Assembly: GCF_007994225.1 (NCBI RefSeq)
Contig: NZ_VLLL01000008.1
Span: 283,695 to 347,694, forward strand
DNA: 64,000 nt
Direction: 5' to 3'
Source of the DNA: Stackebrandtia albiflava
GTDB taxonomy: Bacteria > Actinomycetota > Actinomycetes > Mycobacteriales > Micromonosporaceae
The notes beneath the pieces were generated by a model. It worked only from the letters and a program-made list of their open reading frames with translations. It had not been told where the DNA came from and did no database searches. Below are positions 5,404-40,306 of this stretch, one piece after another. Within the stretch, counting starts at the first letter, position 1; each line of letters begins with the position of its first letter. Made by a program: the position numbers and the translations under genes.

Positions 5404-6492
5404 ATGTTGTATGCGGTGATCCCTGCCGGTGGCAGTGGAACCAGGCTGTGGCCGCTGTCTCGCTCCTGGAACCCCAAGTTCCTGCACCCGTTGACGGGGA
5501 GTGAACACTCCCTGCTCCAGGCCACGACCGCGCGGTTGAACCCGCTGTCCGATCCGGATCACCAGTACGTCGTCACCGGCACCCGGCACGTCGCCGCAGT
5601 CACCCGGCAGCTTCCCCACGTACCCGAGGACAACATCCTCGTCGAACCGTCCCCCATGGACTCGGCGCCCGCCATCGCGCTGGCCGCCGCGGTGATCGCC
5701 GAACGCGAACCCGCCGCCATGATGGGCGCCTTCGCGGCCGACCACCTCATCGCCGACTCCGACGAGTTCGTCCGCACCGTCACCAACGCCATGGAGATGG
5801 CCGCCGACGGACTCCTCATGACCATCGGCATCACCCCGACCGGCCCCGAGACGGGATACGGCTATCTCAGGAGGGGCGAACCCCTCGCCCACGGCAACGT
5901 CCTCGCCGAATACCAGGAGAAACCCGACCACGTCGCCGCCGTCGAGTACGTCTCCAGCGGCGACTACCTGTGGAACGCCGGAATGTTCGTGTGGCGGGTG
6001 GACGCGTTCCTCGCCGAGCTCGACCGGCAACGCCCGGCCATGCACGACGCCGTGCGCCGCCTCGCCGCCGCCTGGCACGGCCCCGACCGCGAAACCCTGC
6101 TCGCCGAACTGTGGCCCCGGCTCGAACGGATCTCCGTCGACTACGCCGTCATGGAGGGCGCCGCGGCGGCGGGCAAGGTGGGGGTCGTCCCCGGCGACTT
6201 CGGATGGAACGACGTGGGCGACTACGACACGCTGGGTTCCGTCCTGCCCGGTGACGACGCCGGGAACGTCGTCATCCCGAACGAGAGCGGCGACGCCGAC
6301 GTCGTCACCCTGGACGCCCGCCGCAACGTCGTCGTGGCGGCGTCCGGCCGCACCGTCGCCGCGGTCGGCGTCGACGACCTGGTCGTGGTCGACAGCGAGG
6401 ACGCGGTCCTGGTCTGCGCGAGAGAACGCGCGCAGGACGTCAAACAGCTCGTGGACGAACTCAAGGCGCGGGGCCGCACCGGCCTGGTCTGA
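5404..6492 (+). CDS. manC: Mannose-1-phosphate guanylyltransferase
   Basis: A 362-residue nucleotidyltransferase that makes GDP-mannose from mannose-1-phosphate and GTP. The N-terminal MLYAVIPAGGSGTRLWPLSR is the GTP-binding signature, followed by the conserved NPKF. VEYVSSGDYLWNAGMF and FGWNDVGDYDTL are typical downstream motifs of the family. It lacks the C-terminal isomerase domain of fused ManC enzymes, as is normal in actinobacteria. Together with manB (13661) and manA (18792) it completes the route from fructose-6-phosphate to GDP-mannose within this window. The ATG has no Shine-Dalgarno sequence, but CATACT at 5391-5396 would put the transcription start at the ATG, so a leaderless mRNA is plausible. 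Confidence 0.9.
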   Translation: MLYAVIPAGGSGTRLWPLSRSWNPKFLHPLTGSEHSLLQATTARLNPLSDPDHQYVVTGTRHVAAVTRQLPHVPEDNILVEPSPMDSAPAIALAAAVIAEREPAAMMGAFAADHLIADSDEFVRTVTNAMEMAADGLLMTIGITPTGPETGYGYLRRGEPLAHGNVLAEYQEKPDHVAAVEYVSSGDYLWNAGMFVWRVDAFLAELDRQRPAMHDAVRRLAAAWHGPDRETLLAELWPRLERISVDYAVMEGAAAAGKVGVVPGDFGWNDVGDYDTLGSVLPGDDAGNVVIPNESGDADVVTLDARRNVVVAASGRTVAAVGVDDLVVVDSEDAVLVCARERAQDVKQLVDELKARGRTGLV

Positions 6493-6617
6493 CCTCCGGC
6501 CGGTTCGTAACGGGCAGGCCGCGAACAGTGCGCGGCTCGGCAACGAAGCGGCCGCGCACGGAACCGGGAGCGGTCCCGGGCACTCCGATCGGTAGCCCTC
6601 TACCGAAGGAGACCTCC

Positions 6618-8072
6618 ATGAGACACAGGGGAACCGCCGTACTGCTGACCGCTCTCGGCGCGATCGTCCTGGCGGGATGCACGGGGACCGGGTCCACGGG
6701 CGGTGAGAACGCGGCCGTCGCCCCCGACTCCACCGACTCCGCGCCGGTGCCGACCGGTGAGGACGACGAGTCCACGTTCGCGGTCGACATCGACACCGCC
6801 TCGTACGAGTACGCCACGGAACAGATCCACAACGGACGACTACCCGACCCCGGTCTGGTGCGCCCCGAGGAGTTCGTCAACGCGTTCCGGCAGGACTACG
6901 CCGAACCCTCCGACCACGGTTTCAGCGTCACCGTGGACGGCACCCGCACTCCCGACTGGTACCGGCCCGCCGACTCGCCGAGTCACCTGTTGCGCGTCGG
7001 ACTCCAGACCGCGTCGGAGTCGGCGGAGGACCGCGACGACGCCCACCTGACCTTCGTCATCGACGCCTCCGGCTCCATGGAACCGGAGAACCGGCTGCCA
7101 CTCGTCAAGGAGTCGCTGCACCTGCTGATCGACCAACTACGGCCCGGTGACGCCGTCGGGATCGTCACCTACTCCGACACGGCGCAGGTCGTCACGGAAC
7201 TCACCTCCGCCGAGGACAAGGCCGGCCTGCACGCGGCGGTGGACGCCATCGAGATCGGCGGTTCCACGAACCTCGCGGAAGGCCTGGCCGCGGGATACCG
7301 GGTCGCCTCCGACGGTTACCGCGCCGACGCCACCAACCGGGTGATCCTGTTGTCGGACGGGCTCGCCAACACCGGTGCCACCGAGTTCGAGCCCATCCTG
7401 GAACAGGCGCGGCAGGAGGCCGCCGAAGGCGTCGCGCTGCTGTGCGTGGGCGTCGGCATGGGCTACGGCGACCAGTTGATGGAACAGTTGGCCGACAACG
7501 GGGACGGCTTCGCGGTGTACTTCGCCACCGCGACCCGCGCCCGGGAACTGTTCGTCGACCAGTTGCCCGCCACGCTCGCCGTGCGGGCGAAGGACGCCAA
7601 GGTCCAGGTCACCTTCGACGAGACGACGGTGGAGAGCTACCGGCTCATCGGTTTCGAGAACCGCGCCGTGGCCGACGAGGACTTCACGAACGACTCCGTA
7701 GACGGCGGCGAAGTCGGTCCCGGTCACAGCGTCACGGCGCTGTACGCGGTGACGCTGCACGAGGGCGCCGAAGGCCCGGTCGCGACGGCGGAGGTGCGTT
7801 GGCTGCATCCCGAGACCGGGGAGGCCGACACCCGCAGTGGACGGATCGAGGTCACCACGGCCGACGTCGCCCCGGAGGCCGCCGACCCGAGACTGCGGGT
7901 GGACGTGGTGGCGGCCGGGTTCGCGGAGTGGCTGCGGCAGGACGAACGCGGCGCGGAGTTGGACATCCGGGCGCTCATCGCGCAGGCCGAGGCGCTGGCG
8001 GTCGCGACCGAGGACCCCGACGTGATCGCACTGGCGGAGGCCATGATCGCCGCCGCCGAGTTGGCGGGCTGA
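6618..8072 (+). CDS. VWA-domain lipoprotein (YfbK-like)
   Basis: A 484-residue exported lipoprotein. The signal peptide ends in the lipobox LAGC with Cys21 as the lipidated residue. The mature part has an N-terminal domain common to YfbK-like proteins (FAVDIDTASYEYA), a von Willebrand A domain with the metal site in VIDASGSM and the strand VILLSDGLANTG, and a C-terminal domain ending LAEAMIAAAELAG. Such proteins sit on the outer face of the membrane and are thought to mediate metal-dependent protein contacts; no substrate is known. AAGGAG at 6606-6611 supports the ATG at 6618. It follows manC on the same strand after 125 bases, with no clear functional link. Confidence 0.85.
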   Translation: MRHRGTAVLLTALGAIVLAGCTGTGSTGGENAAVAPDSTDSAPVPTGEDDESTFAVDIDTASYEYATEQIHNGRLPDPGLVRPEEFVNAFRQDYAEPSDHGFSVTVDGTRTPDWYRPADSPSHLLRVGLQTASESAEDRDDAHLTFVIDASGSMEPENRLPLVKESLHLLIDQLRPGDAVGIVTYSDTAQVVTELTSAEDKAGLHAAVDAIEIGGSTNLAEGLAAGYRVASDGYRADATNRVILLSDGLANTGATEFEPILEQARQEAAEGVALLCVGVGMGYGDQLMEQLADNGDGFAVYFATATRARELFVDQLPATLAVRAKDAKVQVTFDETTVESYRLIGFENRAVADEDFTNDSVDGGEVGPGHSVTALYAVTLHEGAEGPVATAEVRWLHPETGEADTRSGRIEVTTADVAPEAADPRLRVDVVAAGFAEWLRQDERGAELDIRALIAQAEALAVATEDPDVIALAEAMIAAAELAG

Positions 8073-10297: not shown

Positions 10298-11241
10298 GCC
10301 GTGATCCCCACCAGGTCGAGGCCGCGCCGCACCATGGCCTCGGTCGCCTCGGGAGACGACATCCACAGTGGTCCCGCCGACACCGCGACCCCGTCCACGG
10401 TGGTCTGGGCGTCCTCGTCGTCGACCAGCCAGCCGTCCAGCACCCCGTCGTCCCGGCGGGAGCCGTACATGCGGCCGACGCCCTGCGCCGTCACGGGCAC
10501 GTCGAGCGCGGCGAGGCACTTGTCCGCCATCCCGCGCACCGGCGCCCCGCCGATGATCGGCGACACCCCCACGACGGGGGCGGCGGTGGCGCGGACGGCC
10601 TCCCGCACCCCTGGAACCGCCAGGATCGGCGCGATGCTCACGACCGGGTTGCTGGGCGCCAGCAGGACGACGTCCGCGGCGGCGACCGCCTCGGTGACAC
10701 CGGGCGCCGGGCGCGCCTGGGCCGCACCGGTGAACACGAACCGCCGGGCCGGCAGCTCGCCCCGGTGCCTCACCCACCACTCCTGGAAGTGGATCGCTTG
10801 CGGGCCGGAGTCTCCGTCCACGACGACGTGGGTCTCCACCCGGTCGTCCGACATGGGCAGCAGCCGCACGCCCGGCTTCCAGCGGGCGCACAGCGCCTCG
10901 GTCACGGCCGACAACGGGTACCCGGCGTCCGTCATGCGGGTGCGCATCAGGTGGGTGGCGATGTCCTTGTCGCCGAGCGAGAACCACCGCCCCTCGGCGT
11001 CGTACGCGGCCAGCTCGTCGCGGACCGTCCAGGTCTCCCCGGCACGTCCCCAGCCCCGTTCCGGGTCGGCGCCGCCGCCGAGCGTGTACATGACGCTGTC
11101 GAGGTCGGGGCAGATCCGCAGCCCGTGCAGTGTCAGATCGTCACCGGTGTTGACGATCGCGGTAACCTCAGCGGGCAGCCGCCGTACCCCTTCCAGGAAA
11201 CGCGCGCCACCGATGCCCCCGACGAGTACGACGATTCGCAT
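10294..11241 (-). CDS. fbiA: F420 precursor transferase (CofD family)
   Basis: A 315-residue CofD-family enzyme that joins the activated enolpyruvyl/lactyl guanosine diphosphate to the deazaflavin Fo, giving (dehydro-)F420-0. It starts [19 protein letters not shown], the nucleotide-binding loop of the family, and also has [20 protein letters not shown] and [14 protein letters not shown], both highly conserved. The ATG at 11241 is chosen because the family always begins at this strand; the longer frame upstream is outside the family. It is the first gene of the fbiA-fbiB pair. The gene on the other strand starts only 48 bases away, so both promoters share a very short region. Confidence 0.93.
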
Positions 11242-35926: not shown

Positions 35927-36034
35927 CGCCGCCCGCCGTCACACGTGTACCCGGCGAAGTGCCCGGCCACCGGTCGTACCATGGTGGCCGGGCCACGTCG
36001 TGCCCACCGAGACCATCGCCAGACGGGGAGCCCA

Positions 36035-37378
36035 GTGACCAGCGCCGAGGAATACGCCCAGTACTTCGCCGTCGAAGCCGCGCTGGAGGCACGCGGTTAC
36101 AGCCGCGTCAACTTCGACATGCACCGGATCAAGCGGCTGCTGGAGCTGCTGGGTGATCCACACAAGACGTTCCGGGCGGTGCACATCACCGGCACCAACG
36201 GCAAGACCTCCACCGCCCGCATGGTGGAGTCGCTGCTTCGGGCGCACGGCCTGCGCACCGGCCGCTACACCAGCCCGCACCTCGACACCGTCCGGGAACG
36301 CGTCAGCGTCGACGGCGAACCGATCTCGCCGGAGCGGTTCACCGCGCTGTACCGGGAGGTCGAGCCGTTGGCGGCCATGGTGGACGCGGAGTTCGACGAG
36401 AGCATGACCTACTTCGAGATGACGACCGCGCTCGCCATGGCGGCGTTCGCCGACGCGCCGGTGGACGTGGCGGTCGTGGAGGTCGGGGTCGGTGGCGAGA
36501 CCGACGCGACCAACGTCCTGGCGGCCGAGGTCGCGGTCATCACGCCGGTGGGCATCGACCACACACAGTGGCTCGGCGACACGCTCACCGACATCGCCAC
36601 CATGAAGGCCGGGATAGTCCACAAGGGTGCGACTCTGGTCACCTCACTCCAGGAGCCCGAGGCGATGGTGCCGCTGGTGGAACGCTGCCACGTCGTCGGC
36701 GCGTCCCTGGTGGCCGAGGGCCGCAGGTTCGACGTGGAGGAACGCCGGGTCGCGGTCGGCGGACAGTCGCTGACACTGCGCATGCCGTCGGGAGCGGTCT
36801 ACGAGGACGTGTTCCTGCCCCTGCACGGGGGACATCAGGCCCACAACGCCGCCGCCGCGCTGGCCGCGGTGGAGGTGCTGCTGGGCGCGGGCGAGGCCAA
36901 GACCCTCGACGGTGACGTCATCGCGGAGGGCTTCGCGCAGGCGACGTCACCGGGACGCCTCGAACGGGTCCGGACCGCGCCGACCGTCCTGATCGACGCC
37001 GCGCACAACCCCGCCGGGATGCGGGCGACCGTGCAGGCGATGCGGGAGGAGTTCACGTTCTCCCGGTTGATCGGACTCGTCGCCATGTCGGGCGACAAGG
37101 ACTCACACGAGATGCTGACCGAACTCCACACCATCTGCGACCACCTGGTGGTCAGCCAGGCGAGCGTCACCCGCGCCAAACCGGCCGCCGAACTGGCCGC
37201 GGAGGCGCTACGGGTGTTCCAGCCCGAACAGGTGACGGTGGTGCCCCGGCTGGCCGACGCCATCGAGACGGCGGTGCGACTGGCCGAGGAGGGCGAGGCG
37301 GCGTTCGGCGGTGCGGGGGTCCTCATCACCGGGTCGGTGTACACCGCGGGGGACGCGCGCAAACTGCTCGTGAAGTGA
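36035..37378 (+). CDS. folC: Folylpolyglutamate / dihydrofolate synthase
   Basis: A 447-residue Mur-ligase-family enzyme that adds glutamate to folates. GTNGKTS (53-59) is the P-loop, VVEVGVGGETDATNVL the Mg-binding strand, and DAAHNPAGMRATVQAM the C-terminal domain signature. GGGGAG at 36025-36030 precedes the GTG at 36035. It follows valS by 108 bases, the usual actinobacterial order. A DUF4233 gene normally comes straight after; here a set of tiny Cys-rich genes on the other strand has been placed between them. Confidence 0.93.
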   Translation: MTSAEEYAQYFAVEAALEARGYSRVNFDMHRIKRLLELLGDPHKTFRAVHITGTNGKTSTARMVESLLRAHGLRTGRYTSPHLDTVRERVSVDGEPISPERFTALYREVEPLAAMVDAEFDESMTYFEMTTALAMAAFADAPVDVAVVEVGVGGETDATNVLAAEVAVITPVGIDHTQWLGDTLTDIATMKAGIVHKGATLVTSLQEPEAMVPLVERCHVVGASLVAEGRRFDVEERRVAVGGQSLTLRMPSGAVYEDVFLPLHGGHQAHNAAAALAAVEVLLGAGEAKTLDGDVIAEGFAQATSPGRLERVRTAPTVLIDAAHNPAGMRATVQAMREEFTFSRLIGLVAMSGDKDSHEMLTELHTICDHLVVSQASVTRAKPAAELAAEALRVFQPEQVTVVPRLADAIETAVRLAEEGEAAFGGAGVLITGSVYTAGDARKLLVK

Positions 37379-37433: not shown

Positions 37434-37580
37434 TCAGCAGTAGCACATTCCGCAGACGCCGTCGCAGCAGCGACGGTAGCAGCCGCGGCCACAGGCGTAC
37501 GTCTGACAGGCCTGCGGGCCGACCGACTGGGGGGCCAGCTTGCCGAGCAGGCGGTCACCGAGCGCGTTGAGTCGTTTCAC
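37434..37580 (-). CDS. Eight-cysteine small peptide 1
   Basis: A 48-residue peptide: N-terminal part MKRLNALGDRLLGKLAPQSV, then a C-terminal part with cysteines at 25, 30, 34, 38, 39, 43, 46 and 48. It ends with a Cys-Tyr-Cys. GAAAGGA lies before the GTG. There is no signal peptide. The first 24 codons are almost identical to those of peptide 2, while the Cys-rich half differs except at the cysteines and the RRCCDG block. The pattern C-x4-C-x3-C-x3-CC-x3-C-x2-C-x-C recurs in all eight genes of the array. It could be a ribosomal peptide precursor, an antimicrobial, or a metal-binding peptide. I do not know a characterised homologue. Confidence 0.8.
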   Translation of the reverse strand: MKRLNALGDRLLGKLAPQSVGPQACQTYACGRGCYRRCCDGVCGMCYC

Positions 37581-37611
37581 GACGATTTCCTTTCAGGACG
37601 GGCGAGTGGGG

Positions 37612-37761
37612 TCAGCAGAAGCACATGGGGGCGCAGGTGCCGTCGCAGCAGCGGCGCCAGCAACTGGTACCGCACGGGATGATGTGACAGGCCTGCGGGC
37701 CGACCGATCGGGGGGCCAGCTTGCCGAGCAGGCGGTCACCGAGCGCGTTGAGTCGTTTCAC
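37612..37761 (-). CDS. Eight-cysteine small peptide 2
   Basis: A 49-residue peptide with the same leader-like half as peptide 1 (one substitution, Q to R at 18). Its Cys-rich half has cysteines at 25, 30, 34, 38, 39, 43, 47 and 49 (WRRCCDGTC block). The gene is 31 bases upstream of peptide 1, in the same direction, with GAGAGGA before the GTG. The near-identity of the first 24 codons against a changed core points to a recent tandem duplication followed by change in the core. Confidence 0.8.
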   Translation of the reverse strand: MKRLNALGDRLLGKLAPRSVGPQACHIIPCGTSCWRRCCDGTCAPMCFC

Positions 37762-38121
37762 GACGATTCCTCTCCGGGGGCCGTCACGACCGGCCGCCGT
37801 CCCCGGGCATGAGGACGCGGTCTACCGAAACTCGACCGGTGACGGGTGTGATCGGTGGCCCCCGGCCGGATGCCGTGGGCGTCGACCCGCACCCGGTGGG
37901 GCATACCGGTGCGATCCGGCGGGAGCGGCCCGGTCCGCATGCGTGGGCCGGCGCACGCCGAGACCCGACCGGGCAGCCATCCCACGCGGTCGGCCATCGA
38001 CGGGCGTTGATGGTGCGACCGGGAACCCGGTCGCGGCAATCATTGTGGCGGAAACCCATCCGGGGCGCAACACTCCGTCTCCGGTTCGCGGCGTCCCGTC
38101 GATGAGGCGTCCACACGGGAC
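37762..38121. other. 360-base gap between peptides 2 and 3
   Basis: No further Cys-rich ORF is present on either strand. The stretch is GC-rich with no long hairpin. On the minus strand a weak TAGACC box is found around 37830, within reach of peptide 2, so a separate promoter for peptides 1 and 2 may be here. I see nothing else. Confidence 0.4.
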
Positions 38122-38283
38122 TCAGGTGCAGAAGCAGCTCGGTTCGCACCGCACGCCGCCGCCCGAGACCGGACAGCAGCGGCGCCAACAGCTCGTGCCG
38201 CACGGCTGGTTGTAGCAGCGGGGGACCGAGGCGGGGGCGAGCCTCGCCAGCATCCGATCGGCGAGGGAATTGAAGAGACGCAA
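38122..38283 (-). CDS. Eight-cysteine small peptide 3
   Basis: A 53-residue peptide starting at a TTG that has TAGGAG six bases before it. N-terminal half MRLFNSLADRMLARLAPASV, then cysteines at 23, 28, 32, 36, 37, 46, 50 and 52. It shares GTSCWRRCC with peptide 2 but has a longer loop of eight residues between the CC pair and the next cysteine. The leader keeps the L-x2-L/V/A-x-DR-x-L pattern found in all members. Confidence 0.8.
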   Translation of the reverse strand: MRLFNSLADRMLARLAPASVPRCYNQPCGTSCWRRCCPVSGGGVRCEPSCFCT

Positions 38284-38307
38284 GGGTTCTCCTACGGGTA
38301 ACGGGGG

Positions 38308-38349
38308 CTCCCGGTGGTGGGGCTGCCACGGTTCCGTGGTCACCGGGAG
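38308..38349 (-). terminator. Two-part hairpin between peptides 3 and 4
   Basis: CTCCCGGTG (38308-38316) pairs with CACCGGGAG (38341-38349), and inside it CCACGG (38326-38331) pairs with CCGTGG (38334-38339). It lies just downstream of peptide 4, on the strand it is transcribed from, so it may end or attenuate transcription before peptide 3. Confidence 0.5.
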
Positions 38350-38374
38350 GCCCGGGAATGCGATGTCGGTGGGA

Positions 38375-38503
38375 TCAGGGGCAGACGCAGGCGCCGCAGA
38401 CGCCGTTACAGCAACGCCGGACGCAGCCCGGGAAGGCGCAGGCGTACGTGTCGCAGGCGGCAGGTTTCAGCAGCCGGTCGGCGGCTCCGTTGAGGTAGGC
38501 CAT
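38375..38503 (-). CDS. Eight-cysteine small peptide 4
   Basis: A 42-residue peptide, the shortest of the array: MAYLNGAADRLLKPAA, then cysteines at 17, 22, 27, 31, 32, 36, 39 and 41, and a final Pro. CGGAGAAC precedes the ATG at 38503. The leader half is six residues shorter than in the others, yet the L-x2-A-x-DR-LL pattern and the cysteine spacing are kept, which argues that both parts are under selection. Confidence 0.8.
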   Translation of the reverse strand: MAYLNGAADRLLKPAACDTYACAFPGCVRRCCNGVCGACVCP

Positions 38504-38538
38504 GTCGGTTCTCCGATGCGCTGTTATGTGGGTGGATG

Positions 38539-38685
38539 TCAGGGACAGGCGCAGGCGCCGCAGCGGCCGTCGCAGCAGTGGCGGATGCAGCCCCCGGGCG
38601 CGCACGGGTTGACCGTGCAGCCCTTGGCCCCGATTCCGACCATGCGGGCGAGGACGCGGTCGGCGAGACCGTGTAGACGTGCCAT
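38539..38685 (-). CDS. Eight-cysteine small peptide 5
   Basis: A 48-residue peptide: MARLHGLADRVLARMVGIGA, cysteines at 23, 28, 33, 37, 38, 42, 45 and 47, and C-terminal Pro. AAGGAG lies before the ATG. The first 17 codons are nearly identical in DNA and protein to those of peptide 6, 49 bases upstream. The cores differ outside the cysteines. It is followed by 35 bases before peptide 4. The gene is shorter than common ORF-calling limits. Confidence 0.8.
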   Translation of the reverse strand: MARLHGLADRVLARMVGIGAKGCTVNPCAPGGCIRHCCDGRCGACACP

Positions 38686-38734
38686 GTGGATACTCCTTCA
38701 CGAGGGGGTGTGGACCGGTGCTTTCCGGGGACGG

Positions 38735-38878
38735 TCAGGGGCAGGCGCAGGGGCCGCAGGAGCCGTCGCAGCAGTAGCGGATGCAGTCACCGCCGCAGCT
38801 GAACCATTCGCAGGCGTTCGGTTTGGCACCCACCATGCGGGCGAGGACGCGGTCGGCGAGACCGTGCAGACGTGCCAT
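38735..38878 (-). CDS. Eight-cysteine small peptide 6
   Basis: A 47-residue peptide: MARLHGLADRVLARMVGAKP, cysteines at 23, 28, 32, 36, 37, 41, 44 and 46, C-terminal Pro. GGAGGAACAC precedes the ATG at 38878. The leader matches peptide 5, and the middle (PNAC, CGGxC) matches peptide 7, so it looks intermediate between the two in the family's history. No in-frame signal peptide is present. Confidence 0.82.
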   Translation of the reverse strand: MARLHGLADRVLARMVGAKPNACEWFSCGGDCIRYCCDGSCGPCACP

Positions 38879-38919
38879 GTGTTCCTCCTGGAGAGATCGA
38901 TGACGGTTGGGGTCGGGAG

Positions 38920-38952
38920 GTACCGGGTGCGGTGTCTGACCGCACCCGGTAC
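38920..38952 (-). terminator. 14-bp perfect hairpin after peptide 7
   Basis: GTACCGGGTGCGGT and ACCGCACCCGGTAC pair perfectly around the loop GTCTG. On the coding strand the hairpin starts six bases after the peptide 7 stop and lies before peptide 6. It can end transcription from upstream, or act as a processing site that sets the relative amounts of peptides. Confidence 0.7.
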
Positions 38953-38957
38953 GGCGA

Positions 38958-39107
38958 TCAGACCGGGCAGATGCAGAGGCCGCAACCCTGGCCGGTGCAG
39001 CAGCGGCGGATGCAGTTGCCGCCGCAGTCGCGCCACTGGCACGCGTTCGGGGTGCCGCCGATAAGGCGGGCGAGCAGCCGGTCGGCGACTCCGTTGAGAT
39101 GGGCCAT
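38958..39107 (-). CDS. Eight-cysteine small peptide 7
   Basis: A 49-residue peptide: MAHLNGVADRLLARLIGGTP, cysteines at 23, 28, 32, 36, 37, 42, 45 and 47, ending Pro-Val. AAGGAG before the ATG (plus-strand CTCCTT at 39115-39120) is a strong ribosome site. It keeps the NAC and CGGxC features of peptide 6. Together with its own hairpin it could be a separate transcription unit. Confidence 0.82.
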   Translation of the reverse strand: MAHLNGVADRLLARLIGGTPNACQWRDCGGNCIRRCCTGQGCGLCICPV

Positions 39108-39319
39108 CGTGGGGCTCCTTCGTTCGACGGCCGTGACGGCCGTGTGGGGTCGGTCGGCCGGGCGGCATCGCCGTCCCCGGCCTCGAAAGGGTGGGTGCGG
39201 ATTCCGTGAACGCGGAAACGGTGGGCGGTGTGCGACGGGGTCGCCGCATCGTCGATCACCGACCTGGTGGGGGGACCCGCACCGGCGTTTCATTCCCTTC
39301 CAGCCGGGGACTCGTCGCG

Positions 39320-39475
39320 TCAGCAGAAGCAGGCGCTGCAGGTCCAGGTGCCGTTGCTGTAGCAGCACTGTTTCGTACATTGCGGAAGGTGGCAGCTACG
39401 GAACTCGCATCGGGTGGTCCCCGGCGGAGCGAGCCGGTTGAGCATCCTGTCGCCGACTGACTTGAGGAGTCGCAT
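39320..39475 (-). CDS. Eight-cysteine small peptide 8
   Basis: A 51-residue peptide and the first gene of the array in the direction of transcription. MRLLKSVGDRMLNRLAPPGT, then cysteines at 23, 28, 33, 37, 38, 46, 49 and 51, ending Cys-Phe-Cys. The loop between the CC pair and the sixth cysteine is seven residues long, as extended as in peptide 3. AAGGGA precedes the ATG. It is separated from peptide 7 by 212 bases without another ORF. Confidence 0.8.
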   Translation of the reverse strand: MRLLKSVGDRMLNRLAPPGTTRCEFRSCHLPQCTKQCCYSNGTWTCSACFC

Positions 39476-39886
39476 GGTTGGAAGTCCCTTCACACGTGAC
39501 CCCACGCCCGGCCGGTGGGCCGAGGCGCGCACGCATGCCGGTGACCGTTGCCGTTCCACGGTTACGACGGAACCCGCCGGTGGGTCCGGCGGTGGAGTGT
39601 GATCGGGAGGCGGCGGCGGATCGCGGCACGGTGCCACGGGGTCGTCTGGTAATCGGTCGTATACCGGTGTGACGGTGGCGTGGCCACCGCGCACTCCGGT
39701 AGATCGACCGGGCGGCCCATCCCGCGCGCTCGGTCGAATGCGAACATTCGCGAAGCCGAATCCGGCTTCGGCGCTCATTGTGTCGGATAGTTCACGCTTC
39801 CGCAAGACCCCCGCGAGCCGGGTGAGCCGTACCCCGTCGCACCCGGCCGGGTGAGGTGGCGCGGAGGCGTCGGCGACAATCGGGGA
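39476..39886. other. 410-base region between the peptide array and the DUF4233 gene
   Basis: No gene is supported here. It must contain the promoter for peptide 8 (minus strand) and that of the DUF4233 gene. On the minus strand, TATACG near 39660 is a possible -10 box. Two hairpins stand side by side: CGAATG-CGAA-CATTCG (39735-39750) and CGAAGCCG-AATC-CGGCTTCG (39751-39770), both perfect. They may be operators or structured leader sequences. Confidence 0.5.
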
Positions 39887-40306
39887 ATGACCGACTCCGA
39901 CCGGCCCGGCGCAACCGGGGAAGCGGGCACCGACGCGGCGGATCCGAACGCCAGCGGCCTGGCCGACCCAGGGCGGGCGATCACCGCGATGGGCGCTTCC
40001 GTGGTGGCGTTGGAATCGCTGGTACTGCTGTTGTGCCTGGTCCCGTTGCGGATGTTGCGGGTGGAACCGTTGTGGCCGGCCGTGACGTTGGTGCTGGTGT
40101 TGACCGTCGTGTGCGTCGTCCTCGCCGCGTTCATGCGGCGGCGCTGGGCATGGTATGCCGCCGCGGGTGTGCAGGTCGTACTGCTGGCCGCGGGGCTGTT
40201 GCACTGGTCGCTGGCGGCCGTCGGGTTGATCTTCGGGTTGACGTGGTGGTTCGCCGTGTCGATCCGGCGTCGCCTCTCCCGCCCCCCGGTCCGCGACGAC
40301 GCCTGA
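39887..40306 (+). CDS. DUF4233-family membrane protein
   Basis: A 139-residue actinobacterial membrane protein. After about 30 disordered residues it has four helices: SVVALESLVLLLCLVPLRML, WPAVTLVLVLTVVCVVLAAF, WYAAAGVQVVLLAAGLLHW and AAVGLIFGLTWWFAV, followed by a basic tail. The family is normally found between folC and ndk, apparently co-transcribed with folC. Here it is more than 2.5 kb from folC, and no ndk follows. The function is unknown. The ATG at 39887 is preceded by GGGGA. Confidence 0.78.
   Translation: MTDSDRPGATGEAGTDAADPNASGLADPGRAITAMGASVVALESLVLLLCLVPLRMLRVEPLWPAVTLVLVLTVVCVVLAAFMRRRWAWYAAAGVQVVLLAAGLLHWSLAAVGLIFGLTWWFAVSIRRRLSRPPVRDDA

Follow-up and report, generated by a model that had tools for sequence, protein, structure and literature searches.

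The 64,000-nucleotide stretch of Stackebrandtia albiflava DNA analyzed here (contig NZ_VLLL01000008.1, positions 283,695 to 347,694; "the window") carries on its minus strand an array of eight tiny genes, each encoding a peptide with a conserved N-terminal half and a C-terminal half containing eight cysteines. We conclude, with a probability of roughly 0.7, that these are precursors of small secreted disulfide-rich peptides that would be exported, cleaved, and disulfide bonded in trans by the products of a maturation cassette located elsewhere in the genome. This conclusion draws on the genes themselves, a leader shared with many relatives, a cassette linked to such relatives at other loci, the synteny of the array site, even cysteine counts, and coding constraint. 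The action of the cassette on the array precursors, the order of the steps, the disulfides, and secretion are predicted from gene content. The array comprises the following genes.

39320..39475, minus strand: precursor gene 1, 51 amino acids, ATG start
38958..39107, minus strand: precursor gene 2, 49 amino acids, ATG start
38735..38878, minus strand: precursor gene 3, 47 amino acids, ATG start, close paralogue of gene 4
38539..38685, minus strand: precursor gene 4, 48 amino acids, ATG start
38375..38503, minus strand: precursor gene 5, 42 amino acids, ATG start, shortest leader of the array
38122..38283, minus strand: precursor gene 6, 53 amino acids, TTG start
37612..37761, minus strand: precursor gene 7, 49 amino acids, GTG start, leader DNA nearly identical to that of gene 8
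37434..37580, minus strand: precursor gene 8, 48 amino acids, GTG start

All eight open reading frames (ORFs) are intact, each is preceded by a purine run resembling a ribosome site, and their third-position GC content is 0.82-0.92. M1, D9, R10, L12, and the eight cysteines are invariant in all eight peptides. A six-frame scan of the window found 10 ORFs of 35-70 amino acids with at least eight cysteines, exactly 8 of which have [AG]DR-x-L near the start, and no ORF with both features appeared in 60 first-order Markov shuffles of the window; a chance origin of the array was therefore rejected. The ORF reading and the shuffle control bear out the positions, layout, and ribosome sites that the initial annotation had given for the eight genes. 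Per-site synonymous change exceeded nonsynonymous change in 34 of 36 leader or core comparisons (18 hand-chosen pairs), the exceptions being the core of array genes 2 and 3 and the core of the pair L128a/b, so the unconstrained pattern that had been named as a test of the genes was not found. Intergenic gaps from gene 1 to gene 8 are 212, 79, 49, 35, 91, 360, and 31 bp, a spacing that would be compatible with three transcription units (gene 1, genes 2-6, and genes 7-8). A sigma-70 promoter scan returned no sites, and a motif scan found three terminator-like sites, all on the strand opposite to the array genes.

The array peptides belong to a much larger family. (Below, G-numbers denote genomes, L-numbers the loci fetched from them, and "own genome" that of the window.) In the large genome searches, no more than 16 to 35 candidates were scored for each genome, so the family counts are lower bounds; they also vary with the search model. 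A profile built from the eight array peptides matched 15 places in the own genome (E ≤ 0.01) and 19 of 200 genomes searched at the family level, the own genome included. Model A2, an alignment of 50 members, matched 40 places in the own genome, 21 in G004, and 13 in G066 at E ≤ 0.05, and none in G046 and G083, the other two of five genomes of the genus. A phylum search with A2 matched 6 of 396 genomes, one of them (G222) convincing besides the own genome, and a class search with A5 matched 31 of 394, the own genome included. We read 78 members individually: 40 from the own genome (32 outside the window and the 8 of the array), 21 from G004, 12 from G066, 3 from G026, and 1 each from G007 and G222. 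A further precursor at L144 brings the own genome to about 41. The four-base core of a ribosome site lies no more than 17 nt from the start in 72 of the 78 members. One scattered precursor (L125:5084-6573) is flanked by two small genes whose products are similar to each other. Two to three tandem precursors stand beside one cassette at L232, L234, and L237 in other actinomycetes; small precursor arrays are therefore not restricted to the window's genus.

Members share a leader, an N-terminal half that is short, amphipathic, and helix-like and has the pattern M-x3-x3-[AG]-D-R-x-L, in which the arginine is usual but differs in some members. Since this half is shared by about 41 own-genome genes and by genes in other genera, each time before a different cysteine-rich core, the proposal of a leader-plus-core precursor has held up. 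The leader is usually followed by V/A/L-P, then A-x-A, and then a core of 4, 6, 8, or 10 cysteines with diverse spacings. A-x-A occurs within residues 13-40 in all 70 nonarray members, whereas 500 shuffles averaged 27.7 and never exceeded 38. Its last alanine lies 14 residues past the leader aspartate in 57 of 71 cases, in a sample biased toward this position because the search model contains that column. By eye, with no predictor run, no hydrophobic signal core precedes A-x-A in the array or the other members.

The cysteines come in even numbers. All 77 cysteine-bearing members of the first set have an even count (n = 78; L101 has no cysteine). In a second set, where counting began at residue 19, 46 of 47 were even, L179 being the exception; array gene 5, from the first set, becomes odd under this cut, with its first cysteine at position 17 and eight in all. 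These counts come from related members, not from independent trials, although the core types are many, and they leave out the peptides found later in plasmid records and at MauE-picked loci. Control ORFs from the same loci had even counts in 244 of 347 cases with at least four cysteines and in 51 of 154 with at least five. Together with the linkage to redox genes described below, the even counts lend indirect support to the description of the peptides as disulfide-rich. The other possibility raised at the outset, that the cysteine-rich halves are cytoplasmic, metallothionein-like metal-binding peptides, gained no support. Dense cysteines, small size, and the lack of a classical signal peptide by eye would suit such a role, but the even counts over different core types, the linkage to exporter, signal peptidase, and thiol-redox genes, and the Pfam results (no match for the eight array peptides and a single CBM_19 match among 50 members) make it very improbable, and we rejected it.

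Other comparisons were likewise sparse in matches. Pfam and NCBIfam together gave only single sub-cutoff or chance-like matches for the 8 and the 50 peptides. AlphaFold models of A1 (mean predicted local distance difference test score 70.8, predicted template modeling score 0.36) and A6 (72.5 and 0.43) have a low-confidence leader helix and, with moderate confidence, a two-stranded core; Foldseek with either model returned nothing at E ≤ 0.001, and a PDB sequence search found no match for A5 or MauE. Some cores (L096/L123 and L100/L129, with C-G-x-W-x-x-C and a closing C-C) presumably resemble thrombospondin type 1 repeats, judged by eye.

The initial annotation had reported neither a signal peptide nor a modifying enzyme with the array. 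This stands for the immediate surroundings, where the flanking genes are folC-like and DUF4233-like (and the signal peptide was judged without a predictor), but not for the genome, which carries a full maturation cassette elsewhere. At locus L038 of the own genome, a precursor heads the following series of genes.

9102-8926: precursor, 8 or more cysteines
8795-8271: MauE (PF07291)
8232-7708: MauD-like thioredoxin (Redoxin)
7705-5837: ATP-binding cassette (ABC) exporter (ABC_tran)
5767-5183: S26 signal peptidase (Peptidase_S26)

Pfam E-values for the four maturation genes are 2.8e-23 for MauE, 2.5e-12 for Redoxin, 8.4e-29 for ABC_tran, and 7.8e-16 for Peptidase_S26. The S26 protein scores above the TIGR02227 cutoff (48.8 versus 47) and, with its Ser/Lys dyad, has the features of a type I signal peptidase; across loci, serine and lysine motifs are present in 23 of 24 S26 matches. 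The thioredoxin falls far under the MauD equivalog TIGR02661 (32.6 versus 188.6 bits), and we call it MauD-like rather than MauD. CxxC is present in 20 of 20 MauD matches and C-x-CFG in 16 of 16 MauE matches.

The linkage of this cassette to the peptides was examined in both directions. MauD and ABC genes accompany 12 of 15 family-level loci picked by peptide. At the class level, 20 of the better-scoring places, from 16 genomes, have MauD and S26 in every case, ABC in 19 (not L244), and MauE in 19 (not L249). In the reverse test, which started from 15 MauE-picked loci, MauD and ABC were present at 10, and a family peptide at 7 of these; of the remaining three, L255 has only a weak partial match, and L187 and L258, both near contig ends, have none. 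The same arrangement of peptide and cassette occurs in Streptomonospora sp. PA3 (L199), on a plasmid of Streptomyces sp. NBC_01727 (peptide WP_327129478.1), and, with two peptides (WP_003953191.1 and WP_009999284.1), on plasmid pSCL4 of S. clavuligerus; in these named cases the peptides carry the annotation hypothetical protein. One ABC protein served as query for the plasmid search, which listed 29 records, two of which were inspected. Among the 200 family-level genomes, MauE-like genes occur in 17 of 19 peptide-positive and 59 of 181 peptide-negative genomes (Fisher p = 1.7e-6), a rough figure given that the eight-peptide profile missed peptides later found in five genomes and that MauE-like genes also occur without the cassette. 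One of the 12 peptide-picked loci with MauD and ABC is L193, whose ABC gene (5756-6072), next to a peptide and MauD, aligns only as short fragments in separate frames; this gene may be disrupted there, unless the sequence was misread.

MauE and MauD take part in the maturation of methylamine dehydrogenase, and MauE has been suggested to help form its disulfides, according to the accessible part of PMC7794033. This background leaves some room for a product that is not simply a disulfide peptide, with the MauD/MauE-type proteins helping to make a thioether or an aromatic cross-link like tryptophan tryptophylquinone, and many cores are indeed rich in tryptophan and tyrosine. Even cysteine numbers are what disulfides alone would predict, however, and the cassettes that were read share no additional modifying enzyme (not every neighbor was annotated), so we consider another cross-link quite unlikely. 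The mau system itself resembles the present one in linking MauE (PF07291) and a MauD-like thioredoxin to small cysteine-rich proteins and differs in that the thioredoxins here are far below the MauD cutoff. None of the 50 peptides has a Pfam match to the methylamine dehydrogenase light-chain domain, and we rejected the idea that they are mau enzyme subunits.

Within the genus, precursors far outnumber cassettes. The full MauE/MauD-like/ABC/S26 operon occurs once in the own genome, away from the array. The own genome, G004, and G066 each have a single close ABC gene (100, 80, and 78% identity) and a single close copy each of MauE and MauD, against 40, 21, and 13 precursors; in G004 and G066, we saw no precursor next to the cassette. 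G046, with no peptides, has no MauE, no MauD, and no close ABC (best 35%). G083, also without peptides by A2, still has ABC and S26 at the syntenic position but has lost MauD and MauE there. In the own genome, L144 (contig C2, about 688-693 kb) carries a second MauE-MauD-S26 set (S26 at 6134-6574, MauE at 7089-7646) 3 kb from a peptide gene (10602-10784) whose product has leader, A-x-A, and cysteines; this genome may thus hold two sets of maturation genes.

A path through export, S26 cleavage, and oxidation would be the simplest to give each of the four linked genes a role. The amphipathic leader would bring the reduced precursor to the dedicated ABC exporter; outside the cell, the membrane-bound S26 signal peptidase would remove the leader, normally after A-x-A; and the MauD-like thioredoxin and MauE-like membrane protein would join the cysteines pairwise by oxidation. 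Most genomes examined appear to have the precursor in a single operon with its four maturation genes, while in the window's genus, one cassette would serve many unlinked precursors, about 41 in the own genome.

Several observations weigh against extending this path to the array, or against the generality of the system. No maturation-cassette gene lies near the array. The array peptides have no in-register A-x-A, compared with 70 of 70 members elsewhere; two of the eight pass a loose test, one through an A-P-A within the leader and the other through an A-C-A spanning a core cysteine, and the single precursor at the same site in G066 does carry A-I-A before its core. Cleavage of the array products by the cassette's S26 peptidase is therefore doubtful. 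A search for a shared promoter motif yielded only ribosome-site words and uncorrected low-count dyads. Three of the 15 peptide-picked loci (L191, L194, and L197) have no MauD and ABC pair, although L191 has ABC and S26 and L194 is probably a false match. In Actinorhabdospora filicis (G007) and Phytomonospora endophytica (G026), with ABC relatives at 65 and 68% and MauD relatives at 47 and 44%, the peptides, ABC, MauD, and MauE are on other contigs or distant, which gives no linkage support, although the unlinked layout fits action in trans. G046 retains an S26 gene; G083 carries another MauE-MauD-S26 set, accompanied by a small leader-like ORF (L145), so the system is not gone from that genome; and no ABC gene was seen in the loci of the own genome's second set (L144 and L270).

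These points make it possible, if on balance unlikely, that the array has left the system and uses another protease, a retained leader, or no export, while the other family members follow the proposed path. The lost A-x-A, the absence of linked maturation genes, and array leaders a few residues shorter than those of other members speak for this reading. The array nonetheless retains eight intact copies with invariant D9, R10, L12, and cysteines, and its comparisons are constrained except for the core of genes 2 and 3. We favor processing of the array precursors in trans.

The origin of the array can be read from its flanks, which mark a syntenic site and stand outside the peptide system.

35945..37378, plus strand: folC-like flank, which we take to be folylpolyglutamate synthase, 76% identical to its counterpart in L051 (G066)
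39851..40306, plus strand: DUF4233-like flank, named on the same assumption, 60% identical over 115 amino acids in L051

Between the corresponding genes of the sister species G066 lies one precursor (L051:7998-8168), the A-I-A-bearing gene mentioned above, and identity of the flanks extends to ValS (84%, beside 76% for FolC and 60% for DUF4233). The single gene at this site therefore points to local multiplication, by which the array would be an expansion of one precursor still present singly in the sister species. A tRNA-synthetase-side synteny in L055 was rejected, at only 32% identity to ValS. Counted differences between genes 7 and 8 number 2 for the leader and 21 for the core, a pattern that suggests leader homogenization or core replacement.

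Toxin families often join a conserved leader to variable cores, and the array could accordingly be a diversifying arsenal of bacteriocin-like weapons; within it, nonsynonymous change is indeed greater in the core than in the leader in three of four pairs. Between species, however, nonsynonymous change is lower in the core than in the leader in 10 of 10 hand-chosen pairs, and scattered precursor genes keep synteny in several cases. No immunity gene was noticed in the neighbor lists, in which no search was aimed at one. We hold this explanation to be tentative and rather unlikely. Because their cores are conserved between species, the scattered members look like separate conserved products; in L099/L130, L100/L129, and L117/L092, cores better conserved than leaders point to separate conserved targets. 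Our guess is that the products are extracellular binding peptides, the scattered members having separate targets and the array being a diversifying set.

Clusters of this kind have been predicted before. Using decRiPPter, Kloosterman (2020, PMC7794033) flagged MauE clusters with precursors of at least eight cysteines in Streptomyces, one family of which also has MauD; the available part of that paper presents these as predictions and mentions neither a leader or cleavage motif nor an S26 peptidase or unlinked precursors. At L038, a peptide with 8 or more cysteines lies next to MauE, and the array peptides have eight cysteines but no linked MauE. That the precursors of those families are the same as the present peptides is likely but unproven. 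In the open-access literature, with bioRxiv proper and most subscription journals outside its scope, we found no match for the leader motif words and no report of the shared leader, the link between A-x-A and S26, or the unlinked expansion, and PMC7794033 alone tied MauE to precursor peptides; we regard the leader, the cleavage motif, the cassette, and the layout of one cassette with many precursors as new here. The closest parallel in organization is the prochlorosins of picocyanobacteria, where, as far as the accessible part of PMC10783134 goes, many precursors with conserved leaders and variable cores share one maturation system, ProcM. Those are lanthipeptides of the Nif11 family that a LanM enzyme produces, whereas the linked enzymes here are redox proteins, and neither the 8 nor the 50 peptides match Nif11 or another leader family in Pfam or NCBIfam.

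Gram-positive disulfide bacteriocins are exported, leader-bearing cysteine peptides with a thiol oxidoreductase helper, and in this they resemble the system described here. Their leaders are usually cut at a double glycine by the exporter's C39 domain (accessible part of PMC6363468), unlike the A-x-A and separate S26 peptidase found here.

The genes encode ribosomal precursors with leader and core, and dedicated maturation genes accompany the relatives and the L038 precursor, being available to the array only in trans. We therefore describe them, from genes alone, as leader-core precursors resembling those of ribosomally synthesized and posttranslationally modified peptides (RiPPs), with RiPP membership proper awaiting a product. 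Whether they form a separate peptide class, defined by the D-R-x-L leader, A-x-A, and the MauE/MauD-like/ABC/S26 cassette, seems to us evenly poised; on that reading, Stackebrandtia would possess a genome-wide system of one machine and about 41 products, comparable to the conotoxin and prochlorosin libraries, with the array as a source of new disulfide cores.

If these readings are true, a small operon of Streptomyces plasmids and many actinomycetes would be a machine for exporting and oxidizing disulfide-rich peptides of many core types, and scattered "hypothetical proteins" would become a defined, searchable family. S. clavuligerus, with two peptides and a cassette on pSCL4, would be a tractable test host, and a single Stackebrandtia host would offer a natural set of about 41 substrates for testing leader rules and disulfide folding at once.

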